From Spartobacteria bacterium (GTDB taxonomy: Bacteria > Verrucomicrobiota > Verrucomicrobiia > Chthoniobacterales > UBA10450), in NCBI GenBank assembly GCA_003167365.1, contig PMTM01000008.1:1-64000 (forward strand): a DNA stretch of 64,000 bases, given 5' to 3'. Numbering within the stretch: the stretch's first letter is position 1; each line of letters starts with the position of its first letter. The translations under genes and the position numbers were made by a program. Shown here piece by piece: positions 30,993 to 61,763 of the stretch. Under the pieces are notes generated by a model that was given only the letters and a program-made list of their open reading frames with translations, made no database searches and was not told the origin of the DNA.

Positions 30993-32522
30993 CTAGTTGC
31001 TCTCCACGCCCTCTCTCGCGGAAGCTCGATAAACCATACCTTCGGCCGTTCGGGCCACCGGTTGGTACCGTTCTGCCAACAATTTGGCCAGAATGGGAAA
31101 GTCTCGCACAGGATACAGCGCGTTCTTAAGATCGAATTGAAGATCGACAATGTATGCGGGCAGGTGTTTGGCAAAATCTTGCTCGAGCGTGTTCCACGCG
31201 CCTGGCAAGATCCGACTGCGAGTATCCAAACCGGGGATCGGCCCGCCAAACACGTAACCGGTGAGCGGAAATGTTGCGACGTAACGAGAGGCGGGGCGTC
31301 GTCGAGCTTCGAGATAAATTTTTGACGTTTGCCCCCAGACGAAAATCCTGTCATCAGGAGCCGAGTGCGCGGAGAGATATCGGCCGGTTTCAGTCGATTC
31401 GCGTTGCGAAGCCAATCCACACCAATGCGAGATCGAAAACGTGATGACCGTGAGAGCCAGCCAGGTGTAAGCGACCGCCGGTCGCAATAGCCAGTGACGT
31501 GGTTGATTTATCGTGGACCAAAGTTGCGCAAAATGCGGTGCGGCGAGCAGCACGAGAGCCGGGATCAACTGGATGTAGTAGTGAGGATAAAAGCGACCGC
31601 CGGCCGCCACGCCAATGGCTGACGCGATGACCAATCCGAAGAGCGCGATTCGCTCAGCATGTTTGCCGGCCCAGACACCGTTGTTATCTCGAAACGCCAG
31701 CGCCGCACCGAGCACCAGTGGCAAGCTCGCACCAACGAACGCAAGCGTGAGCAAGACTCCATGTTTCCAAAAAAAGTGCGGAGAAGAGTGATTGGCAATC
31801 GTCCAGTAGAACGCGTCGCCAAGAATGTCTTGCTTCCAGAGTACGAGCGTGACCAATCCCAACGTGCCAAAAAAGCCGGCCGTCAGCATGACAGCGTGAG
31901 TGAACGAGGTTGCTCGCGATAAGCCACGGCTGGCGCGGTAGCTTGGTAGGAGTAGATAAATTCCAAGCGGCACGGCGGCGATTGCGGCCGGCTGTTTGAG
32001 TAGAAATCCAGCGCACAGGAGCGCGCCGGCTATGAGTATCTTCGGCCTTAGTCGCGACGAACTTCGTCCGAACGCGATCGCCCACGCCCAGACGATCGGC
32101 AGATTCATCATCAACTCGCCGTTGAACGCGAGATTTTGCCACACCGCCCACGGCTGGAACACACTGTAGAGCAGGGCCGCGATCAGTCCGGTGGTGCGAT
32201 CGAACAATTGTCGACCAATCACATAAAGGCCAGCCATCGTCGCCAGCGTCCACATCAAAGCGACAATGTGCAGCGCTTTCCAATTGAATTTTCCCGTCGC
32301 TTCGAAGATTGCCGCATACGTCCAGAAAAGCAGTGGCGGTTTGCGTTCTACGGCGTCAATATAGGGTCGGCCCCCATCGACGATTTCATTCGCTACCACG
32401 GAATAGATCGCTTCGTCGTCGATCGCCCACGGGTGTAGAAGCGACGGAAGGCGTGTCGCCAACGTGAGGATTACGACGCCAAGCGCGACGAATAGAAATC
32501 GTCGAAAGCTGCGAGTTAGCAT
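30993..32522 (-). CDS. GT39/ArnT-like membrane glycosyltransferase
   Basis: 509 residues with about 11-12 helices. The first extracytoplasmic loop carries the GT-C acidic motif (WAIDDEAIYSVVANEI, then RKPPLLFWTYA), as in the PMT/ArnT group. Such enzymes move a sugar from a polyprenyl-phosphate donor to a lipid or protein on the periplasmic side. The ATG at 32522 has a GAGG ribosome-binding site 5 bases upstream; an ATG at 32546 is also in frame. It is divergent from the sphingolipid desaturase gene, so a role in glycosylating the sphingolipid or another envelope lipid is possible but not shown. Confidence 0.85.
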   Translation of the reverse strand: MLTRSFRRFLFVALGVVILTLATRLPSLLHPWAIDDEAIYSVVANEIVDGGRPYIDAVERKPPLLFWTYAAIFEATGKFNWKALHIVALMWTLATMAGLYVIGRQLFDRTTGLIAALLYSVFQPWAVWQNLAFNGELMMNLPIVWAWAIAFGRSSSRLRPKILIAGALLCAGFLLKQPAAIAAVPLGIYLLLPSYRASRGLSRATSFTHAVMLTAGFFGTLGLVTLVLWKQDILGDAFYWTIANHSSPHFFWKHGVLLTLAFVGASLPLVLGAALAFRDNNGVWAGKHAERIALFGLVIASAIGVAAGGRFYPHYYIQLIPALVLLAAPHFAQLWSTINQPRHWLLRPAVAYTWLALTVITFSISHWCGLASQRESTETGRYLSAHSAPDDRIFVWGQTSKIYLEARRRPASRYVATFPLTGYVFGGPIPGLDTRSRILPGAWNTLEQDFAKHLPAYIVDLQFDLKNALYPVRDFPILAKLLAERYQPVARTAEGMVYRASAREGVESN

Positions 32523-32667
32523 GTTCCTCTTGTTATATAAGACCACTTTAGAATCAATTGTGGGGAAATGTGGCCGATCTTGCGAAAAGTTTTTCGCAGA
32601 GGTTCAAATTCCCAAGATCGACAAGGGTTGGTTTTCCGCCCATTCTGTGGTAGAAAATAAACCCGCT

Positions 32668-33696
32668 ATGCAGGCCGCTTTCCACCAATCGGAGCTCGAT
32701 CAGCCGCACCCCGGTCGTGCGCGCGCCATCGTCAAGGCGCACCCGGAAGTTCGCGCGCTAATGGTAAGAAACCCATACACGGCGCTGATCGCACTTTCGA
32801 TTGTCGTTCTTCAAACCTCCATCGCATTTTTGATGGGCAGACTGGGATTTGGTTATTGGTGGCTTAGTTTACTCATCGCCTACTGCGTCGGCGCCTTCGC
32901 CAATCATGCGAACTACGTGATCATTCATGACGCGACCCACAATCTCATTTTCCGAAGCAAGAGCTGGAACAAAATGGTCGCGATCCTGGCAGATCTCCCG
33001 AATCTTTTAACCGGCGCAATGGGCTTCCGTGTCTATCATTTGAAGCATCATTCAAATCAGGGCGACTACGAGTACGATGCCGATCTGGCCAATCATTGGG
33101 AAGCACGCCTGGTCGGCAACAAATGGTACCGGAAAGCGATTTGGCTGATGCTTTTCCCCTTTTTCCAGCTGACGCGTCCGCCCCGCCTGAAAACGATCAC
33201 CATGTGGGACCGGTGGTTCGTTGTGAATTTGGCGTGCACGGCTGTTTATGATGTCGCGGTGGTCTATTTTCTTGGTTGGCCTGGTCTGTTGTATCTGGGA
33301 TTTTCATTTTTATTTTCGGTCGGACTCCATCCCGTGGGCGCACGCTGGGTTCAGGAGCATTACACCAACGATCCCGAGCAGGAGACATACAGTTATTACG
33401 GGCCGATCAATCGGCTGGCGCTCAACATGGGATATCACAACGAGCATCACGATTTGCCGTCTGTTCCCTGGAATAACTTGCCGAAGTTGCGCGCCATGGC
33501 GCCGGAATTTTACGACGACCTTAAATACCACTCGTCCTGGAGCCGGTTGCTTTTCCAGTTCATTTTTGACAAGCGCTATAGCTTGTTCTCACGCATTGAG
33601 CGAATGAAAAAGAACAAGCCTGATCCACGAATTTCCCAGTCGATTGTCGATCCTGAAAGCAGCCTTGCTCTCAGCGCGGAGGTAACAAATGCCTGA
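32668..33696 (+). CDS. sphingolipid delta-4 desaturase (DEGS1-like)
   Basis: 342 residues. The diiron histidine boxes are HDATH (87-91), HLKHH (124-128) and HNEHH (257-261). Beyond the boxes, blocks match what I recall of human DEGS1 along the whole length: DQPHPGRARAIVKAHPEVRALM at the N-terminus, DADL after box 2, GLHP, EHY, then ETYSYYGPINRLALNMGYHNEHHD and the SW...SLFSR C-terminus. That makes it a member of the dihydroceramide desaturase family and not a general fatty acid desaturase. It would introduce the delta-4 double bond into dihydroceramide at the membrane. ATG 32668 is chosen because the matching sequence begins there. It overlaps the 2-hydroxylase gene by 8 bases. Confidence 0.87.
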   Translation: MQAAFHQSELDQPHPGRARAIVKAHPEVRALMVRNPYTALIALSIVVLQTSIAFLMGRLGFGYWWLSLLIAYCVGAFANHANYVIIHDATHNLIFRSKSWNKMVAILADLPNLLTGAMGFRVYHLKHHSNQGDYEYDADLANHWEARLVGNKWYRKAIWLMLFPFFQLTRPPRLKTITMWDRWFVVNLACTAVYDVAVVYFLGWPGLLYLGFSFLFSVGLHPVGARWVQEHYTNDPEQETYSYYGPINRLALNMGYHNEHHDLPSVPWNNLPKLRAMAPEFYDDLKYHSSWSRLLFQFIFDKRYSLFSRIERMKKNKPDPRISQSIVDPESSLALSAEVTNA

Positions 33697-34366
33697 GACC
33701 GAGAAGCGACGCTACATCTCGAACAAAAATGAAAGCGTGCGGATGTTCGACAGCAAGTTCATGGAGTTTTTTTCGCACATCCATCCGGCCACACCGGTCA
33801 TTTTGTATGTGCCGGTCATCGGTTACATGCTCTACCGCGCGTTTTCGGAAGGGTACATGTCGATCTTGACCATAGCTGCGCTTTTTTTGGCCGGCGTGCT
33901 TATGTGGACTTTATTGGAGTACGGCGTCCACCGTTATATTTTTCACTACGAACCGAAGAGTCGTGTGGGAAGGCTTTTGCATTTCATCGTTCATGGCGTC
34001 CACCATGACTATCCCAATGATGCCAGCCGTCTGGTCTTGCCGCCGGTCATCAGCATCCCCATGGCCGTTTTATTCTATTTTGTATTCGAGTCCACCTTCG
34101 GGCGTTTTGCACCGGCGGTTTCGGCGGGCTTCGGTGTCGGTTACGTCTGCTACGACACGATCCATTACGCGACACACCATTTCGCCATGAAAAACAAGGC
34201 GGGCCTCTGGTTAAAGCAGTATCACTTGCGCCATCATTACAAGGACGATGAAGCTGGATACGGCGTCAGTTCGCCCCTTTGGGATTATGTCTTTGGAACC
34301 ACTCGAAAAATAGCTTGCGAACCCTCGCTGGATGGCCACCCGGCGGTCAAAAAAAGTAGTGACTAA
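33689..34366 (+). CDS. fatty acid 2-hydroxylase (FA2H/Scs7-like)
   Basis: 225 residues with four hydrophobic segments. The dinuclear metal site histidines follow the FA2H/Scs7 order: HRYIFH at 81-86, HFIVHGVHH at 98-106 with the DASRLVLPP block, HYATHH at 159-164, YHLRHHYK at 178-185 and WDYVFGT at 198-204. There is no N-terminal cytochrome b5 domain, unlike yeast Scs7 and animal FA2H, so an external electron donor is required. The predicted reaction is alpha-hydroxylation of the N-acyl chain of (dihydro)ceramide. It starts inside the end of the desaturase gene, so the two are translationally coupled. Confidence 0.87.
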   Translation: MPETEKRRYISNKNESVRMFDSKFMEFFSHIHPATPVILYVPVIGYMLYRAFSEGYMSILTIAALFLAGVLMWTLLEYGVHRYIFHYEPKSRVGRLLHFIVHGVHHDYPNDASRLVLPPVISIPMAVLFYFVFESTFGRFAPAVSAGFGVGYVCYDTIHYATHHFAMKNKAGLWLKQYHLRHHYKDDEAGYGVSSPLWDYVFGTTRKIACEPSLDGHPAVKKSSD

Positions 34367-34605
34367 AACCTTGTCGCGGTTCGCGGAAGCAGTACAATAG
34401 ATGCCCCGACATGGAAGTCTTCGGATCGGGGGACGACACAGGGCCCCTGCTGCTAGGGCTGGCCATAAGGTAACAATCAGCAATTCGTCGATCCATCCAA
34501 GATGTTTAAGGGCAGCAATTTAGACCTGAACGCAATGGCACTCTCTTGCCGGGATTTCCGGACCGGAATAACAAGATCGACAAAAAGACGATGGAGAGTG
34601 CGCTC

Positions 34606-35856
34606 ATGAGCGAAGACCCCTTCAAACTCAGCCTGGGTAATTTCATCGCCAACGAGAGTGACGATCCCCTTCAGGCGCCACCGAGTTTTACCAATTGGGT
34701 GCGGGCCAGCGCGTGGGCAGCCGAATTGTACGAGCCGGAGATGCTGGCGACCGCGGACGCGCGCACAACGATTAGATATGACGGCAAGCCACTATCCGTC
34801 ATCAACCTTTGTTCGTATAATTATCTCGGTCTCGCCAACCATCCCGAGGTAATTGCCTCGGCGCACGAGGCGCTCAAGACGCACGGGCTGGGCGCTTGCG
34901 GTGCACCGGTGCTTTCGGGAATGACCAATCTGCATCGCGAACTGGAGCGCCGCGTCGCAAAATTTCTCGGCCGCGAGGACGCGATGCTTTTTAATAGCGG
35001 ATTTGGCGGCGCGCTTGGGACGGTTTCCGGTTTGCTCCGGAAATCGGACGTGGCCATTCTCGACAATCGCTCACATTTGAGCTTGCGCGATGGAGCCATT
35101 CTCTCTCGCTGCCGGACCGAGAAATTCGAGCATAACGATCCAAACTCGCTCGACACCGCGTTAAATCGACAAAAAGGCCGACGCCAGCTCGTCATCGTGG
35201 AAGGTCTCTATTCCATGGACGGCGATTTTGGAAACTTGAAGGAACTGATTGCCGTGACCGACGCGCATGGCGCGAGTGTTTTTGTGGATGAAGCCCATTC
35301 GATGCTTGCGTGCGGCAAGAACGGTCGCGGCGCGGCCGAACATTTTGGAGTGGAAGATCGTGTTCGACTCGTCTACGGCACTTTTTCGAAAGCATTCGGG
35401 GCGCTAGGAGGATTTGTGGCCGGCCCGAAAGACACGATCGAGTATTTGCGCTTTTACGCGCATCCTTACGTTTTCTCCTGCGCTTTGCCGCCCGTTGTTG
35501 TCGCCGGAATTCTGAAAGCGCTCGAGATCGGCACGAAGCAACCCGAACTGCGGACCAAACTTTGGGAGAACGCGGATTACTTCCATGCGCAACTTCGCTC
35601 TCTCGGCATCGATACCGGAACATCGACAACGTACGTTATTCCGATTGTGATCGGAGAACGCGAACGCATGTACCGGCTTTGCCACGAACTAAGGCGCCGA
35701 GGTCTTTGGGTTGCGCCGGTGGATTATCCAGCTGTTCCGTTGAATCGAGTTTGCTTCCGCGCGTGTGTGACTGCCAAACATACCCGAGCCGATCTCGATG
35801 AAGCGCTCAATATTCTCGAAGACACGCTCGTTCCGGCTGCGTTGCAAAATGCCTGA
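34606..35856 (+). CDS. serine palmitoyltransferase
   Basis: 416 residues, alpha-oxoamine synthase family, PLP-dependent. CSYNYLGLANHP, the glycine-rich GACGAPVLSGMTNLH region, VDEAHS at 227-232, and the PLP lysine K262 in TFSKAFGALGGF are visible. Among paralogues (KBL, AONS, ALAS), the lipid-gene context and length close to the soluble Sphingomonas enzyme point to SPT: serine plus an acyl thioester to 3-ketosphinganine, the first committed step. ATG 34606 has GGAG nine bases ahead; ATG 34591 is the alternative. A 239-base gap precedes it, with room for its own promoter. A hairpin spans its stop codon. Confidence 0.88.
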   Translation: MSEDPFKLSLGNFIANESDDPLQAPPSFTNWVRASAWAAELYEPEMLATADARTTIRYDGKPLSVINLCSYNYLGLANHPEVIASAHEALKTHGLGACGAPVLSGMTNLHRELERRVAKFLGREDAMLFNSGFGGALGTVSGLLRKSDVAILDNRSHLSLRDGAILSRCRTEKFEHNDPNSLDTALNRQKGRRQLVIVEGLYSMDGDFGNLKELIAVTDAHGASVFVDEAHSMLACGKNGRGAAEHFGVEDRVRLVYGTFSKAFGALGGFVAGPKDTIEYLRFYAHPYVFSCALPPVVVAGILKALEIGTKQPELRTKLWENADYFHAQLRSLGIDTGTSTTYVIPIVIGERERMYRLCHELRRRGLWVAPVDYPAVPLNRVCFRACVTAKHTRADLDEALNILEDTLVPAALQNA

Positions 35857-35880: not shown

Positions 35881-36825
35881 ATGCTGGAGCAAAGCGCGCC
35901 AATATCTTCGCTCGTTCAGGCGACTTACAAAGCGCGCGAAGCGGAAGGGATTCTCGATCGTTATTTTTATCGGAAGATCGGGTTCCGGCTCGCCCAGTTC
36001 TTTGCAAAATTGGGAATGACGCCGGTGGCGGTGACGCTTCTCGGCGGTCTATTTGGAATCACCGCGGGACATTTTTATTTCTATCGGGATTTACGACTAA
36101 ACATCGCCGGCATGATTCTGCATGTCTGTGCAAATGCTCTCGACAATGCGGACGGCCAACTTGCTCGTATAACCGGCCGGGGAAGTAGAGCAGGCCGCAT
36201 TATCGATAGTCTCGTCGATCATATTATCTTCGTTAACATTTACGTTCATCTGACCCTTCGCTGTTTGATGGAAGGCGCATCGCCGGCGGTTTGCCTCCTT
36301 GCTCTCGCAGCTGGTATCAGCCACGCATTGCAAGGCGCGGCCGCCGACTATTATCGAAACGGCTTTCTCTACTTCGTAACCGGCCGATCGCGTGCCCAAT
36401 TGGATTCATCGGTAAGCCTGCGGGAAGATTACAAGAAACTCGACTGGCGGCGGCAGCCTTGGCAGAAATTTTTGCTGGCGACGTATCTGAATTTTACTCT
36501 TCAGCAGGAGATGCTCGCACCGAAGCTAAACGAATTGCGAGTTGCTGCAGATCGACTATTTCCGGATGAAATCCCGGATTGGTTGAAAACACGTTATCGC
36601 GATCGCGCCAGACCGATGTTCAAATGGTGGGGCTTTTTGATGACGAACACACGGATGATTATCTTATTTCTTCTTTTGCTGGCCGGTCAGCCTATCTGGT
36701 ATTTCTGGATCGAGCTCACCGTTTTCAACGTCTTGCTAATTTGGCTGGTCGTTCGTCAATCAAACATGTTCGAATCCCTTCTCGAAACGGTGACTACACA
36801 TCGGCATCCCGCGCCTATTGGTTAG
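35881..36825 (+). CDS. CDP-alcohol phosphatidyltransferase, candidate phosphosphingolipid head-group enzyme
   Basis: 314 residues with about six helices. The signature is complete and canonical: D91-G92-x2-A95-R96-x8-G105-x3-D109-x3-D113. A long extra segment follows helix 4 (about 155-240). The N-terminal and motif style (NALDNADGQLARITG) resembles the phosphatidylinositol-phosphate-type enzymes of Bacteroidota inositol lipid clusters, as far as I can recall. The gene lies between serine palmitoyltransferase and the ceramide synthase candidate, 24 and 6 bases from them, so a role in forming a phospho-head-group on ceramide or diacylglycerol is likely. Whether the CMP donor is CDP-inositol or CDP-diacylglycerol cannot be told from sequence. 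Confidence 0.82.
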   Translation: MLEQSAPISSLVQATYKAREAEGILDRYFYRKIGFRLAQFFAKLGMTPVAVTLLGGLFGITAGHFYFYRDLRLNIAGMILHVCANALDNADGQLARITGRGSRAGRIIDSLVDHIIFVNIYVHLTLRCLMEGASPAVCLLALAAGISHALQGAAADYYRNGFLYFVTGRSRAQLDSSVSLREDYKKLDWRRQPWQKFLLATYLNFTLQQEMLAPKLNELRVAADRLFPDEIPDWLKTRYRDRARPMFKWWGFLMTNTRMIILFLLLLAGQPIWYFWIELTVFNVLLIWLVVRQSNMFESLLETVTTHRHPAPIG

Positions 36826-36831
36826 TGAATT

Positions 36832-37992
36832 ATGTCCTCGATCGAAGTTTCAAAAGTTAGTTGGCCGCAAGAACGAAAAGCATTCATCGAATTTCCCTGG
36901 CGCATTTATAAAGATGATCCCGCTTGGGTGCCGCCGCTTATTATTGAGCGACAAGCGTTTCTCGATCGCAAAAAGCATCCGTTTTACCAGCACGGAGAAG
37001 CAGAATTATTTTTGGCGCGTCGGAACGGCGACATCGTTGGCCGAATCATGGCCAGTGACGATCCGCGATATAACGAACGTCATCAAACCAACGTCGGGTG
37101 CTTTGGTCTTTTCGAATGCATTGACGATCACGATGTCGCTGCTGCGCTTTTTCAAGCGGCGGAGGATTGGTTGCGTGCGCGCGGACGCAGCGAGGTCATG
37201 GGTCCGATTGATTATTCTACCAATTACGTCTGTGCGTTGTTGATCGACGGTTTTCAGTATCCGCCCACCATTCTCACGTCGCATAATCCTCCTTACTACG
37301 CCGCGCTGATTGAAGGCTGCGGTTTTGTGAAAGCGAAAGATTGGTACGCGTGGTGGTTCTCGGAATTTCCCGCTGCGGCAGAACGATTGCGGAAGATTGC
37401 CAGCGCGCGTGCCGGAAAATTCGGCGTCACCATTCGACAGGTCAATCTGAAGAAAATCGAAGAAGAAAGTCAACGCATCCGCACGATCTACAATCAGGCG
37501 TGGCAAGAGAACTGGGGCTTTGTCCCGTTTACCGAAGCGGAAATGGAGCACATGGGAAAGGAGATGAAACCTTTGATCAATCCCAAAGGCATGTTGATCG
37601 CAGAGATTGGAGATGAGCCGGTCGGCTTCGTCATTGGCGTGCCGGACATCAATGTCGCCATCAAGCACGTCAATGGTCGCTTGTTCCGTTTCGGTTTGCC
37701 GATCGGTTTAATAAAACTGCTCTACTATAGATTGAAAACCCGCACGGGCCGGCTCATCGCTCTCGGAGTTGTCGAAAAATACAGACGCTCCGGCATCGCT
37801 GAAATGCTTGTCCTGGGTCTAATGGACGCGTCGTTCCAGCGCGGATTCACCGGTGAGCTCAGTATGACGCTCGAAGACAACGTCATGGTCAATCGTTTCA
37901 TCGAAGCGATGGGCGCGGCCCGATACAAGACGTTTCGGATTTATCAGCGTCCAATCGATGCTCGAGAAGCTAGTCGCCCGAACCTGACTTGA
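36832..37992 (+). CDS. GNAT-superfamily acyltransferase, candidate bacterial ceramide synthase
   Basis: 386 residues. It belongs to the large GNAT-like family that opens with EFPWRIYKDDPAWVPPL and continues with GEAELFLARRNGDIVGRI, GFFECIDDHD and GPIDYSTN, ending in a second GNAT-type half (LIALGVVEKYRRSGIAEMLV). In Caulobacter the bacterial ceramide synthase is, to my memory, a member of this acyl-CoA N-acyltransferase type and is genetically linked to SPT. Here it is the third gene of the SPT run, which supports N-acylation of the sphingoid base. Its end overlaps the convergent CDP-alcohol transferase by 23 bases. Confidence 0.7.
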   Translation: MSSIEVSKVSWPQERKAFIEFPWRIYKDDPAWVPPLIIERQAFLDRKKHPFYQHGEAELFLARRNGDIVGRIMASDDPRYNERHQTNVGCFGLFECIDDHDVAAALFQAAEDWLRARGRSEVMGPIDYSTNYVCALLIDGFQYPPTILTSHNPPYYAALIEGCGFVKAKDWYAWWFSEFPAAAERLRKIASARAGKFGVTIRQVNLKKIEEESQRIRTIYNQAWQENWGFVPFTEAEMEHMGKEMKPLINPKGMLIAEIGDEPVGFVIGVPDINVAIKHVNGRLFRFGLPIGLIKLLYYRLKTRTGRLIALGVVEKYRRSGIAEMLVLGLMDASFQRGFTGELSMTLEDNVMVNRFIEAMGAARYKTFRIYQRPIDAREASRPNLT

Positions 37993-39283
37993 ACGTTTCT
38001 TTGCCTGGGAATTGGTACCGCTTTACCCAAAGGGCCCAGGCCGCACGCGGAAGATGTATTGCAGCCGTAATTGATTCCCACCAAGCGATCACGACAAATG
38101 CTTTGGCTGGATTCCCCAGAAGAACGCCAACAGCTAAAATCCAAACGTAAATATTCCGCCGCCCACCGATGAGCCGGATGAACCGGTCGAACGGGCCGAG
38201 CTCGTCGATCAATCGCCCGTAGCGGAAGAGGATGCTTCCCTTGGCGATCAAGTCGAGGGCCTCGGCGAACAAAAGCAGCAAGAGATAGTTATAGGCTCCC
38301 GCCAGCTGGCCAGTCCTTTGCAAGTGATAAGCCAAAGCAGTCCACCACGAGATTTCGAACAACGTGTCGAACCAATGCTCGAGCTTACCCGCTTTGGAAC
38401 TCTCAACTTTCACTCTCGCCTGCTTGCCGTCCAAACCGTCAAGCACGCCCACGATCAAAGCCAGCGCCGTTCCCCAAACCAGCTGACCCGTCGCAAAAAG
38501 AATCGTCGCCGTCCAAGCCGCGATGTTGCCCAGGATGGTGAGCTGATTGGGCGTGATCGAGGTCTTACACAGGCGCGCGACAATGAATGTTTCGATCGGA
38601 CCGTGAATCAAGGCGGGGAAATCCAGCGTGCCCTTTTGGGCTGAGTCTAAAATTACGCGTTCTGCTCGCTGTTTATGTGTAATCGATGGTGCTGGAAACC
38701 AGTAAGCCGGCAGTTCCCGGCGCATGGTTGTGGAATACGAATCTTGAGCGGCTATGTCCAAAGGCGCGATCGTTTTTTCGTCGAGACCTTTGCCCAAGCC
38801 TTCCATGAGCGTGAGGTCTTGGCCAACAGCCCAATCGCGTTGAATAAGAGCTGGGCCGCATAGTTTTCCCCAATTCGTGCTTGGGGCCGATGCGACGAGC
38901 GGTTGGAGTAGCTGTGACACTCCGGAGTCAACCAGCGCAACAGATGAGTTCTGACCATCAACAAGACGTGGCAGTCTATTATCGAAGATCGCATCACCGG
39001 GTAGCACCAGTAACTCCGAAACGCCGTTGGGCCATACATCGACAATCTGTTTTAAGGTTACCGGACCGGCCGGTCGGCCCCGTAAATTCACAGACAACCC
39101 GGTTCGAAATGGTGAGGGTATCGAAAGATGTTTCTCCAGGATTTTCGGGGTGCTGGTTAGAATGATCGCTCGAGTCAGTTGGCAACGTTGCAAGGTGCGC
39201 AATAAGCGCTCGATCACCGAAATGCCGCACAATTCCACCAAAGCCGCCGGGGCATCGGCAATAATAATACATTCATGATGCAT
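37970..39283 (-). CDS. CDP-alcohol phosphatidyltransferase fused to a degenerate nucleotidyltransferase domain
   Basis: 437 residues. Residues 1-190 follow a Rossmann-like nucleotidyltransferase outline (ECIIIADAPAAL, SVIERLLRTLQRC, LLVLPGDAIFD) but lack the G-x-G-x-R-L loop and the K-P motif, so the domain is probably inactive. Residues 230-437 are a CDP-alcohol transferase with six helices and DGLDGKQAR, followed by the variant GKLEHWFD in place of the usual G-x3-D-x3-D. The architecture equals that of bifunctional inositol-1-P cytidylyltransferase/DIPP synthase, whose first activity seems to be supplied here by the separate gene at 40412. It probably transfers a phospho-alcohol from a CDP donor. 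ATG 39283 is chosen because upstream codons resemble nothing. Confidence 0.78.
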   Translation of the reverse strand: MHHECIIIADAPAALVELCGISVIERLLRTLQRCQLTRAIILTSTPKILEKHLSIPSPFRTGLSVNLRGRPAGPVTLKQIVDVWPNGVSELLVLPGDAIFDNRLPRLVDGQNSSVALVDSGVSQLLQPLVASAPSTNWGKLCGPALIQRDWAVGQDLTLMEGLGKGLDEKTIAPLDIAAQDSYSTTMRRELPAYWFPAPSITHKQRAERVILDSAQKGTLDFPALIHGPIETFIVARLCKTSITPNQLTILGNIAAWTATILFATGQLVWGTALALIVGVLDGLDGKQARVKVESSKAGKLEHWFDTLFEISWWTALAYHLQRTGQLAGAYNYLLLLLFAEALDLIAKGSILFRYGRLIDELGPFDRFIRLIGGRRNIYVWILAVGVLLGNPAKAFVVIAWWESITAAIHLPRAAWALWVKRYQFPGKETFKSGSGD

Positions 39284-39437
39284 TTTAAGTGGTTGCACAA
39301 AACGCTCTCGAGCAAAACGAATCCGGCATCGACGGCTGTAGTAGTAGACACGGCCTTGGGAGCGGTCAACGGACGATCTTTTTCTGCAGTCCGGGCCAAT
39401 TTCCGGCGACAAGGCGTCTTGCCACGAAGGCCGGTCG

Positions 39438-40415
39438 ATGTTATTGCAGGAGCCCGTGTTGCGCCAAGACTCATCGCGAAACGGCACCCCGAAGCCGCCT
39501 AGTCTCTCATTTCGCTTACGCTATAGCCCATTCCTGGCCCAGCTGGTCGTGATCCGCCGCTGCAACCTGTCGTGTGGGTATTGCTCCGAGTATGACAAGT
39601 CCAGTCAACCCGTGCCTTTCGAAGTCCTGGAGGAACGACTACGAAAGCTTAGAGAACTTGGCACATTTGGCATTTCATTGACTGGCGGTGAGCCAACGCT
39701 GCACCCGGAACTTCCCCGCCTCATTCGTAAATGTCGCGAGCTTGGTTTTCTTCGCACCGGTATGATCTCCAACGGCTTCTTCTTGCGGCCTGAGCTGATC
39801 GAAAAGCTCAATAAATCCGGACTTCAGGAGATACAGATTTCTATCGACGGCGTGCACGCCAATGAAACCACACAAAAGGTCCTCGACAATCTGAAGAAGC
39901 GCCTTCAGGCGCTTAAAGAGCACGCTCGTTTCGAGGTCACCGTCAGCGGAGTAATTGGTGCCTCCCCCCCAGAAGAAGCGGAGGAAGTAGTATCTGTTGC
40001 GAGTGAGATGGGGTTCACTCCACGCGTCCTCCTTGTGCACGACAGCAACGGTCAGCTCAAGCTGAACAGCAACGAGATTAAGACGTTCGAGAACATCGTT
40101 AAAAGGCTGCCGAAGAGTTGGAAGGAATTTTCTAACTACCGCAAACGTTTGGTGCATCAGGGTTCATCCCCATTTAAATGTCGCGCCGGTAGTCGTTACT
40201 TGTATGTGGATGAATTCGGAAAAGTAAACTGGTGTTCGCAAACGCGTGCTGTTTGGTCCAAAAATTTGATGAACTACACGCTCGATGACTTACGCGAGCA
40301 GTTCTATCGCTATAAATCTTGTCACGCTACTTGCACCATTGGGTGTGCGCGTTCCGCCAGCCAACTCGACAACTGGCGCCGGCAACCCGGATTTTTAGCT
40401 CGTAACGCACACTAG
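39438..40415 (+). CDS. radical SAM protein
   Basis: 325 residues. The 4Fe-4S site is C42-x3-C46-x2-C49 (RRCNLSCGYCSEY), with GGEPTLHPE as the SAM-binding loop and the QISIDG strand. C-terminal cysteines (FKCRAG, NWCSQ, CHATCTIGC) suggest a partial SPASM-like auxiliary cluster. The reaction is unknown. It stands inside the lipid cluster on the plus strand between two minus-strand genes, and its stop overlaps the IPCT-like stop (CTAG at 40412-40415). Possible jobs are modification of a lipid head group, an acyl chain or a peptide; I cannot choose. Confidence 0.85.
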   Translation: MLLQEPVLRQDSSRNGTPKPPSLSFRLRYSPFLAQLVVIRRCNLSCGYCSEYDKSSQPVPFEVLEERLRKLRELGTFGISLTGGEPTLHPELPRLIRKCRELGFLRTGMISNGFFLRPELIEKLNKSGLQEIQISIDGVHANETTQKVLDNLKKRLQALKEHARFEVTVSGVIGASPPEEAEEVVSVASEMGFTPRVLLVHDSNGQLKLNSNEIKTFENIVKRLPKSWKEFSNYRKRLVHQGSSPFKCRAGSRYLYVDEFGKVNWCSQTRAVWSKNLMNYTLDDLREQFYRYKSCHATCTIGCARSASQLDNWRRQPGFLARNAH

Positions 40416-41155
40416 CCGCGGCTGACCCGCGGTTCCTTTAACGCGCGCATCTCCGACTCGACGTGCTCGAGCATATCCGGAGTATCGATGTCCTGCCACC
40501 AGGCCGCGCCGATATCGATTACACGCGCTTTGCCCTCGGCCGCCATCGATCGAACTCCATCGGCCAGACTACAATCACCATTTCGTTTCGCTCGTTCGAG
40601 ATACGCAAAAAATTCTGGCGGACAAACAAACAGGCCGGTATCGATCGCGTCGTAGGTTTCGAGATTCTTGCCAATCGCGGTGATACGATCTCTGTGCGTT
40701 TGGACTTTCATTGCGTCATCAATATCGAAAATAGAATCGAGCTTTCGATCGATGGCGAGATTCAATCGATCAGCCGAAGCCTCACGAATGAGAAGATCGA
40801 CAATCGATTGGTCGAACAAATGATCGCTCATGGTCAAAAGAAAATGAGCGTCTACGCTCTTAGCCGCAGCGAGAACAGAAACACCGTTCTGTTTTTGCCA
40901 ATCGGGATTGTGGATGAAAGAAAGTGCGAGGCCGGGCGCGGCCAATTGTCTTACTTCTGCGCTCAACCGCTCGCTCTCATAGCCGACGACGATGTTGAGT
41001 TTCTTGATCCCGGCCCGAACGAGCGCGTCCATCGTGTAACAAATTAGCGGACGGCCGAGCACGGGGACGAGCGGCTTTAAAATCGAGTTATCAGATTCGC
41101 GTAGGCGCGAGCCCGAGCCAGCCATAAGAATCACTGCTTCGGAAATCGCGGTCAT
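40412..41155 (-). CDS. inositol-1-phosphate cytidylyltransferase-like nucleotidyltransferase
   Basis: 247 residues. The active nucleotidyltransferase loop MAGSGSRL is at 11-18, with KPLVP at 27-31 and TMSDH at 108-112 as metal/sugar-binding residues. Specific matches to the cytidylyltransferase of archaeal di-myo-inositol phosphate synthesis, as I recall it, are NGVSVLAAAKS, FLLTMSDHLF, DIDDAMKVQTHRDRITAIGKNLETYDAIDTGLF and WWQDIDTPD. This supports CTP plus inositol-1-P giving CDP-inositol. The sugar-nucleotide alternatives (GDP-mannose or UDP types) fit less well. It is coupled to the SDR gene by ATGA at 41152-41155. With the inositol-3-phosphate synthase at 52.5 kb it would feed the two CDP-alcohol transferases nearby. 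Confidence 0.75.
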   Translation of the reverse strand: MTAISEAVILMAGSGSRLRESDNSILKPLVPVLGRPLICYTMDALVRAGIKKLNIVVGYESERLSAEVRQLAAPGLALSFIHNPDWQKQNGVSVLAAAKSVDAHFLLTMSDHLFDQSIVDLLIREASADRLNLAIDRKLDSIFDIDDAMKVQTHRDRITAIGKNLETYDAIDTGLFVCPPEFFAYLERAKRNGDCSLADGVRSMAAEGKARVIDIGAAWWQDIDTPDMLEHVESEMRALKEPRVSRG

Positions 41156-41955
41156 ATCCCGTAATATTTCTTTAAGCCCCAGATCCGGAGGCGCTGGGGT
41201 AGAAATCGGAAAATGAGCGGAGCAATCTTTGTTTGAAACGCGTCGCCGGCCGTCGCCTGCGGCGGCGGATTCGGCTGATCGATCAATTCGCAAACGCGCC
41301 GCGCAACAAGGTCGGGCTTGGGCGCGTTCTTCATGTTGTGTTCAACTGCGTCCCAGGTTTTCGCAACATTGGCTTGGTAGCGCGAGTCGGGCTTCGCGCT
41401 TTTTGCCACTGCATCGTTGAAGCCGGTGCAGATATCGCCGGGTTGGAGATCGACAATGTGTATTTGCGAATTTGGCAACTCGAGTTGGATCGACATCGTA
41501 AAAGCGGCAAGTGCCGCTTTCGCTGAGTTGTAGGCCGCCATAAACGGCACGGGCAGACGCGAGGCGAGCGAAGTGACGTTGATTATCAAACCTTGTGGGC
41601 GGGATTGCATGGCGTTCAGCGCCAGGCGCATCAACTGCAACTGACCAAAGACGAGCACTTGGAATTGGCTCGCGATTTCCTTTTCGGAAAGATGCTCAGC
41701 CGGACCAAAATGGCCGCTGCCAGCATTGTTAATTACGACGTCAAAGTGGCCAGCTTCAGCAAGCGCGGCATTAAATCCGGAACTTATTGAACCGGAATCG
41801 GCGAGATCGAGTCGTAGCGGGTGCAACCGCGGCAGCGGCGCAATGCGAGCTGGATCACGAGACGTTCCCCAGACCTCATCTCCGCGCGCGACAAGCGACT
41901 TTGCGATGGCAAGTCCAATCCCCGAACTCGCCCCGGTGAGAAAAATGCGCTTCAC
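41152..41955 (-). CDS. SDR oxidoreductase, candidate 3-ketosphinganine reductase
   Basis: 267 residues from a GTG start that overlaps the preceding stop. Classical SDR: TGASSGIG at 7-14, NNAG at 76-79 and the catalytic Ser129, Tyr142 and K146 (NVTSLASR, then AAYNSAK). TSRDP after beta 2 fits NADP preference. The C-terminus (FRFLPQRLRIWGLKKYYGI) is a hydrophobic/basic tail that could bind the membrane, as in eukaryotic KDSR. Within a cluster that has SPT and an acyltransferase but no other reductase, it is the best candidate for reducing 3-ketosphinganine. The family is too broad to be certain. Confidence 0.72.
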   Translation of the reverse strand: MKRIFLTGASSGIGLAIAKSLVARGDEVWGTSRDPARIAPLPRLHPLRLDLADSGSISSGFNAALAEAGHFDVVINNAGSGHFGPAEHLSEKEIASQFQVLVFGQLQLMRLALNAMQSRPQGLIINVTSLASRLPVPFMAAYNSAKAALAAFTMSIQLELPNSQIHIVDLQPGDICTGFNDAVAKSAKPDSRYQANVAKTWDAVEHNMKNAPKPDLVARRVCELIDQPNPPPQATAGDAFQTKIAPLIFRFLPQRLRIWGLKKYYGI

Positions 41956-46439: not shown

Positions 46440-47147
46440 TCAACTTCGTGAGCTGCGGGGGTGGCTGGCAATGATGCGGCCGTCCTTCATCTCGTGAATC
46501 CAATCGCACGCCTCCGCGATCGCCGGATTATGGGTAACGAGAAGCAAAGCCTTCTCGCCTTGGTGCACAAGATTCTTAAGTAGGTCAAAGGCGCGTTCTG
46601 AATTCGCGGTGTCAAGATTGCCCGTCGGTTCGTCCGCTAAAATTACCTTTGGATCGTTGGCGAGCGAGCGAGCGATGGCCACGCGTTGCTGCTCGCCGCC
46701 AGAGAGATGCCGGCTGGGCCGCCGCCGCTTATCTCCGAGACCGACTGCTTCGAGCAAGCCGCCGGCGCGCTCGAGCATTTCTTCCTCTGATAAACGGCCC
46801 AGTCGCCGCATCGGTATCATGACGTTTTCCTGCGCGCTGAAATCCTCCATTAGAAAATGAAATTGAAAGATGAATCCGATTAGTTCGTTGCGTCTGCGAG
46901 CGAGCTCGTCGTCACTCAGATTGGACATGAGCTGCGATTCGATCGCCACGGAGCCTTTATCGGGGGAATCGAGCAATCCGAGGATATAAAGTAACGTGCT
47001 TTTTCCGCAGCCCGAGGGTCCCACCACCGCGTGAACGCTGCCAGGGTCGAGTTGGAGTGAGACGCCGCGTAGCGCGTGCACGCGTGATTCCTCTTCGCCG
47101 AGATAACGCTCGACGTCGTGGCAACTGAGACGGATTTCTGAATTCAT
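46440..47147 (-). CDS. ABC transporter ATP-binding protein, LolD/MacB type
   Basis: 235 residues. Walker [10 protein letters not shown] at 43-51, the Q-loop FQFHFL, signature LSGGEQQR and Walker [13 protein letters not shown], with the switch His in LVTHNP, are all intact. The sequence style is that of the LolD/MacB/FtsE export group. Its ATG overlaps the permease stop by ATGA at 47144-47147. It partners the FtsX-type permease and the HlyD-type adaptor directly upstream. Confidence 0.92.
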
Positions 47148-48379
47148 ACGCTTGAACCGCGCAGTGTCGCGACTGGAGGAAGTTCGGCCGCGCGCCGCGC
47201 CGGCACGTAGCTCGCGATGGTCACAGCCACGATAGCGAGCAACGTTGCCCACATATAATGACGCCAATCCCACACTACCAGAAAATGGTTGGTGTAGAGC
47301 AAGCCGCGAATGCGAATGGGAATGTTCGAAACGCCCCAGGTCAACAATGCGCCGAAAATGCACCCAATAAGCGAGCCGGCCGCCGCAATCATGGCGCCCT
47401 GCCAGAGAAAAATCGCGCTGATGTCGATCCGTCTGTATCCCATTGAGCGAAGAATTGCGATTTCTTTAACTTTCGAAAGCACCGTCATGGTCAGCACGTT
47501 GAAAATGCCGAATCCGGCCAATAGTATTATCAACGAGACCGTAATTGCGGCGGACATCCGCAGGGTCAGGAAAAGTTGAAGCGTGCTTTCTTCACGATCT
47601 TGCCAACTTTGTGTTTCGTGCTGGAAAAGCGTTTCAAAATGCTGTGCTAAAGCCGGCGCACTATGCGGATCCCGCAGTTTGTAAATGATCATTGAGGCCG
47701 TGTAAGGCTTGTGTAAAAGCGTCTGAGCGACACGGGCATGTGAATAAACACGGGTGGCGTCGATAGGACCTATCCCACTGCGAGCAATGGCCGCCACTAT
47801 TAAGCGCCGGTACTCTCCACCTGGAGGCAGCAACTGAACGGTATCGCCCGGCTCCACATTCAGAACGTCCGCCAGGCGGGACCCGATAATTACAGAGTTC
47901 GGGTTGTTTCGAAAATCGTCGAAACTGCCATTAACAATTTGATGCGCCAGATCGGTCGTCTGCAAGTGCAGCGCCGGATCGATTCCGTAAAGATCGACAG
48001 TCGCATTTTCAAAACCCGCGCGTGCGCTAAGCGTTCCGCGCAGCACTGGCGAACAGGAAACGACGTTCGAGAATTGCCGGCTTACGCGCATGATCGCACT
48101 GGCGTCGTCTATCCCCTCGAAATAACTGCGATGTGAGGCCTGTGTCTTGGAGTTTTTCGGCGGGATAAGCATGGTCGACTGAGGACGAAAACGGGAACGA
48201 ACAATCAGCGCGCCATTGCTTCCCAGAGTCGAGTCGATGAAATACTGGGCGAATCCTTCGGTTTGCGCCTGCGTGCCGATGAAAATGGCCACGCCAAAAA
48301 CGACGCCGGCAAGGCTTAGCAACAAGGCGCGCTTGCGATGCACGAGAAAGCGCAGCGCGATGTAAAGCGGCGGAGTCAC
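47144..48379 (-). CDS. FtsX/MacB-type ABC permease
   Basis: 411 residues from a GTG start. One N-terminal helix (about 19-38), a periplasmic domain of about 230 residues (MacB_PCD-like: GSNGALIVRS, LGIDPALHL-type strands), then three C-terminal helices (SLIILLAGFGIFNVLTMTVLSK and KEIAILRSMGYRRIDISAIFLWQG are the FtsX core). This topology belongs to LolC/E and MacB systems that extrude lipoproteins, lipids or peptides using ATP. Translationally coupled to both neighbours (GTGA and ATGA). Confidence 0.9.
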   Translation of the reverse strand: MTPPLYIALRFLVHRKRALLLSLAGVVFGVAIFIGTQAQTEGFAQYFIDSTLGSNGALIVRSRFRPQSTMLIPPKNSKTQASHRSYFEGIDDASAIMRVSRQFSNVVSCSPVLRGTLSARAGFENATVDLYGIDPALHLQTTDLAHQIVNGSFDDFRNNPNSVIIGSRLADVLNVEPGDTVQLLPPGGEYRRLIVAAIARSGIGPIDATRVYSHARVAQTLLHKPYTASMIIYKLRDPHSAPALAQHFETLFQHETQSWQDREESTLQLFLTLRMSAAITVSLIILLAGFGIFNVLTMTVLSKVKEIAILRSMGYRRIDISAIFLWQGAMIAAAGSLIGCIFGALLTWGVSNIPIRIRGLLYTNHFLVVWDWRHYMWATLLAIVAVTIASYVPARRAAELPPVATLRGSSV

Positions 48380-49536
48380 TTAATGTTTCCGGCGACGATG
48401 TTGAGCCGGCGTTGCCGCACGATTTGCCCAGGTCGCAATTTGTCCTGATCCGTCACCACCACCCTATCACCCAGGGAGATGCCGCTTATTGCTTCCGCGA
48501 AATCGAGCGTGCGAAATCCAATTTTCACCGTTCGCCGTTGCACGGCGCCGCCTTTTACAATCCACGCCTGATCGACAAGTATCGCGCGCGTCGGAACGAG
48601 AAGAACATCTTCGTGCGTGCCGGTAATGATGTTCATCTCGCCGGTCATGCCCGCCATCAAATTGTCGGGCGGGTTCTCCAGGTCGAGCACGATGGTGTAG
48701 CGCTGCGTTTCCGGATCGGCCGCGGGTTGAACAGCGGAAACGCGAGCGGTGAATTGCTGGGTGCGATACGCATACAATTGCAGAATCGCCTTCATCCCCG
48801 GTTTTACTTCGCCGACGTCTTCTTCATTTACCTCGCCCCGGACATAATTCTTGCGCGCCGAGACGGTAAAAAGTTGATTGCCCTCCGCCACCAGTTCGCC
48901 ATCAATCGCTTGAATATTGCTGAGAATTCCGTCCATCGGCGCGCGGATCTCGGAATTCTTCATTTGCGCTTCGAGTTTCTTGCACGCGTCTTCCAATGTT
49001 CCGAGATTGCGGTCGCGCTCGATCCGTTCGTTCTCGACCGCGCCGCGCAACCGGCTCGCTTCGTTTTTCGCTTTTTCGTATTCAACGGCCGGCACGTTGC
49101 TTAAGGCTGCGAGTTTTTCGAGTCGCTGTAAATTGTCCTCCGCGGTTTTGAGTAACTCCGCCGAGGGCAACGGGAGCGCAGCTCGCTCGGTCGCGGCCGC
49201 CAGGTCTGCGCGAGCTTGTTTCAATTGGCGGGCGGTCGTTTCGTCGGCAATTGTCGCAAGTAATTGGCCTTTCTCGACAGTTTTGCCAATGGCGCCACGG
49301 CCAGCTGAGAAAGGATCGGCCAGCCGGATAAATCCGGCATTCTGTGCGCGAACCGGCACCACTTCTGTCGGCTCGATGCGCACCGTTCCATAGACTGCGG
49401 CGAAAGCGGTGCCGCGCTGGACGATTGCCACTTCTGCGACTGGCAAAAACAAATACCAAACAATCGCCACCACCACCACGAGCGGCGCGACCACCCAGAT
49501 CAGATTCTTCGATCGCAGAAACTTCAACGGCTGCAA
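48376..49536 (-). CDS. HlyD/MacA-type periplasmic adaptor protein
   Basis: 386 residues with an N-terminal membrane anchor (about 13-32). It has the barrel-sandwich (lipoyl-like) halves, a coiled coil (about 100-190, KQARADLAAATERAALPLP and SRLRGAVENERIERD), and the beta-barrel/membrane-proximal domains (IRAPMDGILSNIQ, GLNPDG-like strands). It links an inner-membrane ABC unit to TolC. The start codon is TTG, placed directly after the TAG of the upstream TolC gene (TAGTTG), so expression should be coupled. Confidence 0.88.
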   Translation of the reverse strand: MQPLKFLRSKNLIWVVAPLVVVVAIVWYLFLPVAEVAIVQRGTAFAAVYGTVRIEPTEVVPVRAQNAGFIRLADPFSAGRGAIGKTVEKGQLLATIADETTARQLKQARADLAAATERAALPLPSAELLKTAEDNLQRLEKLAALSNVPAVEYEKAKNEASRLRGAVENERIERDRNLGTLEDACKKLEAQMKNSEIRAPMDGILSNIQAIDGELVAEGNQLFTVSARKNYVRGEVNEEDVGEVKPGMKAILQLYAYRTQQFTARVSAVQPAADPETQRYTIVLDLENPPDNLMAGMTGEMNIITGTHEDVLLVPTRAILVDQAWIVKGGAVQRRTVKIGFRTLDFAEAISGISLGDRVVVTDQDKLRPGQIVRQRRLNIVAGNIK

Positions 49537-50874
49537 CTAATGCACGTTTTGCGCGCTGTCGTCTGAAAATTGAAAATAGCGTCCCAGCGCACGGTCCCAT
49601 TCCGCCAACGCCACTTTTTGTTGATAGGCGAGAGTGACGAGAGCACTTTTTGTTTCGAGGAGAGTGCTTTCAACTTGTCGAAACTCGAACTGCGATGCCA
49701 CGCCGCTGGCAAGATTTTGCTGGACGATGGTGGCGTTCTGCTCGGCGGCGGCAGTGGCTTCCTTGAGCGCGCTCTGTTTTGTCGCAATCGCCTTCAAGTT
49801 ATTCTGAATCCGCGAAAGCTCGCGCGGCACATCCGCTTCGAGTTTCCGCAACTCCACCTTGTTGATTTCACGTGCTTCGCGCTGTTTCATGACCGCGCCG
49901 TAAACTTTGCCGTTGTCGATCACGTGCCACGTATAAGCGCCCCCGGCGCGGATTTCGGAAGAGGCGATGTCGTCGGTACGCCGGTCTGAATTTTCCGTTG
50001 TGCGGCGAGTTCCCGAGACGGGAAGCAATTCGCCGGAGATCGTCGCGTTGATGGCTGGATAATATCCCGCCTCGATAATTCGCTGGTCTTCGTTCGCCGC
50101 GCGCACGACGAGGCGAGCGAGTTTGAGATCGGCCCGGCGCTCCAATGCCGCCGTTGTCCCAGCGTCAAGATCGACATCTATCGGCGCGAAAACCAATTCC
50201 CCTCCTGGGTTGGGCAAAGTTGCGCCAGCATCGAGATCGCTTCCCATCTCCTCAGCCAGCTTCAAAATAGCATCTCCATACGCGCGTTGCGCCGACTCGA
50301 CTCGAGGATCCTGGTTTCGCGTTTCTACTTCCACGCCGGTGAATGCGCCGCGATCGACCAGTCCCGCTTCGTATCGAGCTTTTTGGCTCACTACATTTTC
50401 TTCCAGCCGGCTCCTTTGCTCTTCGCGTAATGAACGCAATGAGCGATTGTAAAGCGCGCTGTAAAAAGCGATTCGGGCGGCGTGCAATTGCTGCGCCACT
50501 TCGACGTTGAGCCGCTGTTGCGCGATCAACAACTCCACATCGCCGCGACGGAAGGAAGCGGGAACTGCTGCGTTAAAGAGCGGTTGCAAAAAGTTGCCAT
50601 ATCCAAAACCGAATGCTTGGATCGATTTTTCACCCGCGCGATGGCCGCCTTGAACGCCGGCGACAATTCCGATGACTGCGTCGGGCAGTCCGACCGCCCG
50701 GAATATCAAGCGTTGCCCGACGGCTTGTTCAAGGCCGCATTTTGCCCTTTGAATCTCCGGATTTTTTTCAATGGTCGTTTGAAGCGCGGCCTCCAGGGTA
50801 AGTCCGAAGGTCCTCGTCGCCAAAGAAGCGATCAGACAACAAAGAAAGGCGGCCGGGAGAAACAATCGTTTCAT
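49537..50874 (-). CDS. TolC family outer membrane protein (second copy)
   Basis: 445 residues with a signal peptide (MKRLFLPAAFLCCLIASLA) and the OEP repeats: two long coiled-coil halves with GLEQAVGQ and the RLNVEVAQQLHAARIAFYSALYNRSL stretch typical of TolC hairpins. It forms trimers in the outer membrane. The start overlaps the stop of the first TolC gene by ATGA. Divergence from its neighbour suggests an older duplication. Confidence 0.88.
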   Translation of the reverse strand: MKRLFLPAAFLCCLIASLATRTFGLTLEAALQTTIEKNPEIQRAKCGLEQAVGQRLIFRAVGLPDAVIGIVAGVQGGHRAGEKSIQAFGFGYGNFLQPLFNAAVPASFRRGDVELLIAQQRLNVEVAQQLHAARIAFYSALYNRSLRSLREEQRSRLEENVVSQKARYEAGLVDRGAFTGVEVETRNQDPRVESAQRAYGDAILKLAEEMGSDLDAGATLPNPGGELVFAPIDVDLDAGTTAALERRADLKLARLVVRAANEDQRIIEAGYYPAINATISGELLPVSGTRRTTENSDRRTDDIASSEIRAGGAYTWHVIDNGKVYGAVMKQREAREINKVELRKLEADVPRELSRIQNNLKAIATKQSALKEATAAAEQNATIVQQNLASGVASQFEFRQVESTLLETKSALVTLAYQQKVALAEWDRALGRYFQFSDDSAQNVH

Positions 50875-52473: not shown

Positions 52474-53577
52474 ATGAGAAAAATTCGAATTGCAATCGTT
52501 GGAGTGGGCAATTGCGCCAGTTCCCTTATCCAGGGGATTAATTTTTATCGCGGAGGCTCCGGTAATGGCAGGAGCGTTGGACTGATGCATCGCCAGATCG
52601 GCTCCTACCAGCCCGAGGATATCGAGGTGGTCGCCGCCTTCGACATCGACCGCCGTAAGGTCGGACTCGATGTAAGCAAGGCCATCTTTTCCCCGCCGAA
52701 CTGCACCAAGATCTTTTGTGAGAAGATCAATCTCACCGGCGCAATCGTGAAAATGGGGTGCGTTTTCGATAGCTATGCTCCGCACATGCGCGAACAGGAT
52801 CCTCTTCGCACGTTCTTGCCGCTGGAAAAGGAATCGACCAGAGAACAAATCATCGCTGAGCTAAAAAACTCATCCGCCGAGATTATGTGTAATTATCTCC
52901 CGGTCGGCTCCGAAGAAGCCACGCGTTTTTACGCCAGTTGCGCCCTTGAGGCCGGCCTCGCTTTCGTCAACAACATCCCTGTTTTCATTGCCAGCGATCC
53001 GGTTTGGGCAAAGCGTTTTGCCGACAAAAAATTGCCAATCATTGGCGACGATATCAAAGCGCAAATGGGCGCGACCGTTTTGCACCGTACCATTATCGAT
53101 CTTTTCCGTAAGCGCGGGGTCAAGGTGGTGCGGACTTATCAGCTAAACACCGGCGGCAACACCGATTTTCTCAACATGCTCAATCGCGACAGGCTCGCTT
53201 CCAAGAAAACATCGAAGACCGAAGCCGTGCAATCGGTCATGGGCGAACGCCTCGACGATGAAAATATCCACATCGGGCCGAGCGATTACGTCCCGTGGCA
53301 ACGCGACAACAAAATCTGTTTTATCCGCGTCGAGGGCCGGCTCTTTGGCGACGTCCCAATGGAACTCGACTTGAAACTCTCCGTGGAAGATTCCCCGAAC
53401 TCCGCCGGAATTGCGATCGACTCGATCCGGTGCTGCAAACTCGGACTCGATCGCGGCATCGGTGGCGTCCTTCATTCCGCGTCCGCTTATTTTTCCAAGC
53501 ATCCTCCCGTGCAAATGACCGACGACGAAGCGTACCGTTCCGTGGAAGAATTCATCCGCGGCGTGCGCGCCTGCTAA
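52474..53577 (+). CDS. ino1: myo-inositol-3-phosphate synthase
   Basis: 367 residues, the short prokaryotic form. The NAD-binding loop is GVGNCASSLIQG near residues 10-21; the catalytic lysine region IGDDIKAQMGATVLHR, TYQLNTGGNTDFLNM, SKKTSKTEAV and SPNSAGIAIDSIR are all present. It converts glucose-6-phosphate to inositol-3-phosphate (1D-myo-inositol 3-phosphate), the only de novo source of inositol. It supplies the substrate needed by the cytidylyltransferase-like gene at 40412. Its stop is shared with the convergent addA-like gene (CTAA at 53574-53577). Confidence 0.94.
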   Translation: MRKIRIAIVGVGNCASSLIQGINFYRGGSGNGRSVGLMHRQIGSYQPEDIEVVAAFDIDRRKVGLDVSKAIFSPPNCTKIFCEKINLTGAIVKMGCVFDSYAPHMREQDPLRTFLPLEKESTREQIIAELKNSSAEIMCNYLPVGSEEATRFYASCALEAGLAFVNNIPVFIASDPVWAKRFADKKLPIIGDDIKAQMGATVLHRTIIDLFRKRGVKVVRTYQLNTGGNTDFLNMLNRDRLASKKTSKTEAVQSVMGERLDDENIHIGPSDYVPWQRDNKICFIRVEGRLFGDVPMELDLKLSVEDSPNSAGIAIDSIRCCKLGLDRGIGGVLHSASAYFSKHPPVQMTDDEAYRSVEEFIRGVRAC

Positions 53578-61753: not shown

Positions 61754-61763
61754 GCGTGCGAAA

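Follow-up and report, generated by a model that had tools for sequence, protein, structure and literature searches.

Bacterial sphingolipids described to date are mostly saturated in the long-chain base, and a 4,5 double bond in that base has been regarded as a eukaryotic mark. The bacterial route through serine palmitoyltransferase (SPT), a reductase and an acyltransferase has been described (PMC11087976, PMC11324152); in Caulobacter, whose ceramide pathway involves Spt, CerR, CerS/bCerS and the CPG genes, the acyl chain is hydroxylated by the DesA-type protein CC_0202 (PMC11324152), and no sphingolipid delta-4 desaturase (DES) is reported there. In myxobacteria, 2-hydroxy sphingolipids and functional homologues of the fatty-acyl 2-hydroxylase FA2H are on record (Ring et al. 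2009, cited in PMC10002949), linkage to a DES gene not being among the features set out in the portions of that source used here. A survey of desaturase families sets the delta-4 sphingolipid desaturases apart in a cluster of their own, without further analysis (PMC5037126). Here we describe adjoining homologues of DES and FA2H in a Spartobacteria bacterium (assembly GCA_003167365.1), encoded in a window of 64,000 nucleotides that forms the first 64 kb of the 202 kb contig PMTM01000008.1.

Analysis of the window suggests that the locus is probably a bacterial gene cluster for sphingolipid biosynthesis in which DES and FA2H would act as tailoring oxygenases; its predicted product is most likely a 2-hydroxy-acyl, 4-sphingenine ceramide. 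Like the Caulobacter pathway, it offers candidates for SPT, a reductase, an N-acyltransferase, and the CDP-alcohol and nucleotidyl transfer steps of head-group addition; it differs in carrying the acyltransferase gene in the SPT operon and an SDR as the candidate reductase. With the myxobacterial proteins, compared by description only, it shares an FA2H-type 2-hydroxylase that appears tied to sphingolipids. FA2H-like enzymes are thus already known in bacteria, and it is the DES half that seems uncharacterised: searches of the open-access literature, a scope outside which subscription papers mostly fall, yielded no bacterial DES that has been characterised. The source genome (3.13 Mb, rated 100% complete) has as its relatives soil Verrucomicrobiota labelled Chthoniobacterales, Spartobacteria or Candidatus Udaeobacter.

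Family assignment of the desaturase and the hydroxylase

The DES gene (32668..33696, + strand; ATG at 32668, TGA at 33694-33696) encodes 342 aa matching the Pfam families PF08557 (Lipid_DES; 29 bits, cut-off 23) and PF00487 (FA_desaturase; 98 bits), and is the only Lipid_DES gene in the source genome. The FA2H gene (33689..34366, + strand; 225 aa; ATG at 33689, stop at 34366) overlaps it by 8 bases (ATGCCTGA), with an AGG about 10 bases upstream of its own ATG. Coordinates, overlap and position ahead of an SPT-like gene all agree with a sequence-only reading of this stretch, which had also held that both proteins follow their families beyond the histidine boxes, as Pfam matches, identities, shared columns and the Scs7 fold confirm.

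Judged by its sequence, the window DES is a member of the sphingolipid delta-4 desaturase family. It has the Lipid_DES N-terminal motif, found in all 28 aligned bacterial relatives, three histidine boxes (H87-DAT-H91, H124-LK-HH128 and H257-NE-HH261) and the extended motif ETYSYYG...GYHNEHHD. Full-length identity is 39% with Arabidopsis DES, 36% with fly Ifc and 34% with an algal DES (E 1e-58 to 1e-74), but drops to 22-23% against the genome's three other desaturases. Small errors may be present in the fly and Arabidopsis sequences used. The algal reference comes from locus L036 (G480:C10:1-9000), rejected as a Verrucomicrobiota gene on account of its eukaryotic contaminant contig with a 74-base GT-AG intron, at which it was spliced, and kept only as a eukaryotic reference. 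Fifty-one columns are invariant across eight DES proteins, the three eukaryotic ones included, and 17 of these are missing from all the other desaturases of the genome. The identities and the trees, in which the protein groups with DES, exclude a general fatty-acid desaturase; models of carotenoid enzymes score far below cut-off, which excludes that class too. The window protein differs from DEGS1, Ifc and plant DES in being the product of a bacterial operon gene in a distinct sequence clade, known here from sequence. A search of the PDB with a DES profile gave no match, and Foldseek on the DES model returned a desaturase/AlkB-type fold only, which is uninformative on substrate.

The wider DES family, with its animal and plant members, consists chiefly of delta-4 desaturases. 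Bifunctional enzymes such as vertebrate DEGS2 do exist within it, all members carry the same histidine boxes, and sequence does not settle the outcome; the window protein could be a sphinganine or ceramide C4-hydroxylase, or act in both ways, with phytoceramide rather than 4-sphingenine ceramide as the product. We consider this unlikely, given the prevailing activity of the family and a window free of any feature specific to hydroxylation.

The FA2H homologue belongs, on its sequence and modelled fold, to the FA2H/Scs7 family. It matches PF04116 (69 bits) and is the sole FA_hydroxylase gene of the source genome; its only relevant solved relative is yeast Scs7 (E 7e-33, about 35% identity). Ten of its histidines (H81, 86, 102, 105, 106, 159, 163, 179, 182 and 183) align with the zinc ligands of the two-metal site of Scs7, which we take to be histidines 244, 249, 268, 271, 272, 326, 330, 345, 348 and 349, in agreement with the histidine positions in the PDB chain. 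An AlphaFold model (mean pLDDT 79) superposes on Scs7 with Z 20.5 (2.8 A over 204 residues), and the best structural match other than Scs7 is stearoyl-CoA desaturase at Z 5.0; the Scs7-like fold rules out a carotenoid or sterol hydroxylase. Yeast Scs7 and mammalian FA2H have a fused cytochrome b5 domain, whereas the window protein has none. An FA2H tree, with too few columns and long eukaryotic branches, does not resolve its placement. The role in ceramide tailoring proposed by the sequence-only reading is likely from the cluster, but 2-hydroxylation does not stand as a eukaryotic mark, bacterial FA2H homologues being on record (PMC10002949).

Conservation of the cluster and the SPT-like gene

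DES loci were collected by a scan of 85,000 species genomes. FA2H lies directly after DES in 23 of 26 Chthoniobacterales loci; of the others, one has it after SPT, one has none in the locus, and in one the contig ends. Because the pair adjoins in so many related loci, the pairing is not due to chance. An SPT-like gene is present in all 21 Chthoniobacterales loci whose contig runs far enough, and the order DES, FA2H, SPT, CDP-alcohol phosphotransferase, GNAT acyltransferase, often with a nucleotidyltransferase and a ketosphinganine reductase, is kept within a Chthoniobacterales family. An alphaproteobacterial version, mostly SPT-GNAT-DES, has an SPT-like gene in 22 of 23 loci and FA2H nearby in five; it includes the isolates Methylocapsa, Methylocella and Beijerinckia, and its SPT and GNAT proteins are about 34% and 32% identical to those of the window. 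M. acidiphila B2 has an FA2H gene close to its DES gene.

The third group is represented by a Saprospiraceae locus (L090) with the order CDP-alcohol transferase, DES, FA2H, phosphoinositol dihydroceramide synthase homologue, SPT, GNAT, epimerase and inositol-phosphate synthase. Its SPT exceeds the curated cut-off of NF047600 (681 vs 640 bits), and its synthase homologue (NF052609-like, E 2.5e-82) falls below cut-off. Six functions (DES, FA2H, SPT, GNAT, CDP-alcohol transferase and inositol-phosphate synthase) are shared with the window; L090 has the PAP2-type synthase homologue and an epimerase-type reductase; the window instead has a further CDP-alcohol transferase, together with a cytidylyltransferase and an SDR. 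What is observed is that DES and FA2H belong to their families and keep the catalytic histidines, and that this clustering occurs in three bacterial groups. In a tree of alpha-oxoamine synthases, the SPTs with which DES clusters fall into three distinct lineages, and no other observation speaks as strongly for a sphingolipid as the substrate of DES. The cluster is real and conserved and, as far as its predicted chemistry can be read from sequence, the delta-4 step is a new part of the bacterial sphingolipid pathway.

Several observations weigh against this assignment. In two Spartobacteria relatives DES stands apart from FA2H or the locus is without FA2H; no SPT-like gene occurs in the fetched flank of 30 of the 31 other Bacteroidota and Ignavibacteriota DES loci; 32 of 40 DES-bearing Bacteroidota genomes are without an SPT above cut-off; and the SPT, KdsR and head-group genes of the window itself are all under curated cut-offs. 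An SPT above cut-off is nonetheless found in 8/40 DES-bearing versus 1/40 DES-lacking Bacteroidota genomes (Fisher p 0.03, uncorrected for relatedness). Because most Bacteroidota and Ignavibacteriota DES genes lie away from SPT, DES homology alone is no proof of a sphingolipid substrate, and other lipids may be the substrate of some family members, or their SPT may be of a type that no curated model covers. The DES genes away from SPT and the DES-bearing genomes without a curated SPT also leave room for a reading in which DES and FA2H act on lipids of another kind (free or glycerolipid fatty acids, or ornithine-type amides) and adjoin SPT by chance or through joint regulation; repeated clustering with three SPT lineages, together with the Scs7-like fold and ligands of FA2H, makes this improbable.

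The SPT-like gene (34591..35856, + strand; an upstream TTG at 34546 may be used as an alternative start) is so named because it reaches no curated SPT equivalog cut-off in NCBIfam (320, 318 and 264 bits versus 500, 640 and 670), which leaves it weaker as a serine palmitoyltransferase than the sequence-only reading implied. The BioF and glycine acyltransferase models even score slightly higher on it than the SPT models, as would suit an alpha-oxoamine synthase that builds another amino-alcohol or a sulfonolipid-like base. That alternative is a little harder still to credit: the closest solved relatives are the bacterial SPTs 3a2b and 8guh (E 5e-78), the two further alpha-oxoamine synthases of the genome fall on other branches than this protein, and a KdsR-like SDR and a GNAT acyltransferase lie in the same cluster. 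We assign it as a probable SPT on its nearest solved structures, its distinctness from the two paralogues and its context.

Two further loci were noted. In another family of the phylum (L037, G265:C1:2080000-2097000), FA2H, which reads in two pieces, lies together with GNAT, an epimerase-type reductase and DES, flanked by insertion-sequence-like genes, and an SPT-like gene is located elsewhere on the contig. A locus filed as Acidobacteria (L044, QIAB01000086.1) has a cluster that is Chthoniobacterales-like throughout (DES 81%) and is probably a misbinned or mislabelled contig.

Distribution and history of DES

Within the window's order, 16 of 147 genomes carry Lipid_DES; they belong to a single family, in which its presence is patchy. 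It occurs also in 4/387 genomes across the phylum (one of them the contaminant contig of G480), in 40/395 Bacteroidota genomes (about 10% of the species genomes sampled) and in 5/398 Pseudomonadota genomes. DES is a widespread bacterial family of Bacteroidota, Alphaproteobacteria and one family of Verrucomicrobiota, and for this reason the window gene is not a recent eukaryotic loan. In a 72-row tree it lies deep inside a clade of these three groups, and the eukaryotic DES proteins, with four from Bacteroidota (L161-L164), fall across a branch with 100/99 support. On these data the window DES appears to have been inherited or exchanged within bacteria. Recent acquisition of both DES and FA2H from a soil eukaryote, to which their eukaryotic family names and the patchiness of DES might point, is very improbable in view of bacterial relatives 45-84% identical in three phyla versus 34-39% for eukaryotes, a gene GC content near the window mean, and the approximately unbiased (AU) test, which rejects a clade of eukaryotic with Chthoniobacterales DES (p 6.6e-6) and, at the level of the present data, refutes a recent eukaryotic origin of DES. 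A scan of viral contigs gave no relative that would point to a viral origin.

The sequence-only reading had raised the direction of transfer between bacteria and early eukaryotes. For this locus the question changes: the window copy lies deep in bacterial diversity and its grouping with eukaryotes is rejected, and it therefore has little bearing on bacteria-to-eukaryote transfer. L161-L164 (G1128, G1027, G1199 and G1124) are a better place to examine it, being 44-51% identical to fly and plant DES and nearer to these than to the window DES; one sits in a 3.7 Mb contig, and no SPT-like gene occurs within the fetched 12-17 kb around them. The DES tree is unrooted, an outgroup of the genome's other desaturases having given branches 8-10 changes per site long, and it carries no direction of transfer between bacteria and eukaryotes. 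A 2026 study reports that the sphingolipid metabolism of eukaryotes, taken as a whole, has an Asgard association (PMC12872458); the present DES results are neutral on this point.

Predicted pathway and neighbouring genes

From the gene content of the locus we infer substrates, regiochemistry, reaction order and head group as follows. The SPT-like enzyme would join serine and an acyl thioester. A candidate 3-ketosphinganine reductase of the SDR family (41152..41955, - strand; NF049977 KdsR as second best match, E 1.2e-47, below cut-off), kept in the clusters of relatives, would reduce the ketone, and a GNAT acyltransferase (36832..37992, + strand; PF00583), a candidate bacterial ceramide synthase whose homologues adjoin SPT in Alphaproteobacteria (about 32% identity) and in the Saprospiraceae sphingolipid operon (39%), would N-acylate the base, either before or after the reduction. 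DES, a predicted di-iron membrane desaturase, would act on dihydroceramide, desaturating its long-chain base at the 4,5 position, and FA2H would hydroxylate C2 of the N-acyl chain.

The head group, probably phosphoinositol, would be added last by CDP-alcohol phosphotransferases (both PF01066). The first candidate (35881..36825, + strand) has weak matches to inositol-phosphate transferases and adjoins the SPT-like gene in relatives also; the second (37973..39442, - strand) has an N-terminal extension and weakly resembles the DIPP synthases of NF041135. Phosphoinositol would be supplied by myo-inositol-phosphate synthase and a CTP:inositol-phosphate cytidylyltransferase. The nearest curated family of the nucleotidyltransferase (40412..41188, - strand) is indeed inositol-1-phosphate cytidylyltransferase, and it matches NF041135 over the cytidylyltransferase half (E 1.5e-37, below cut-off); a myo-inositol-phosphate synthase gene (52474..53577, + strand; PF01658; TIGR03450 E 2e-128, below cut-off), a possible head-group source, lies 11 kb beyond the SDR.

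With a bacterial DES in a sphingolipid operon, the standing of the 4,5 double bond as a eukaryotic mark can be tested directly in cultured relatives such as Methylocapsa and Methylocella, and biochemical and structural work gains a simple predicted di-iron delta-4 desaturase. The finding also advises caution in lipidomics, as sphingosine-type ceramides from soil are not necessarily eukaryotic, and the bacterial DES set provides the right sequences for tracing the origin of the eukaryotic enzyme. We put forward only tentatively the wider proposal that a true DES gives rise to sphingosine-type (4-sphingenine) ceramides in at least three bacterial phyla, that soil Chthoniobacterales add 2-hydroxylation and a phosphoinositol head from CDP-inositol, and that the delta-4 desaturase of eukaryotes branched off from the bacterial family, the Bacteroidota lineage of L161-L164 being closest to it among known relatives.

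Other genes of the window include a PMT_2 glycosyltransferase adjoining DES (30996-32546, - strand), found near DES also in L022, L031 and L034, and a radical SAM gene (39438-40415, + strand) between the second CDP-alcohol phosphotransferase and the cytidylyltransferase, which some relatives (L032, L044, L053 and L054) also retain. Between the sphingolipid genes and the inositol-phosphate synthase sits a block encoding a MacB-type ABC exporter, a membrane-fusion protein and two outer-membrane efflux proteins (46440-52262, - strand), for which a role in lipid export is conceivable. The selenocysteine machinery genes selB and selA occupy 59819-63143 (- strand).

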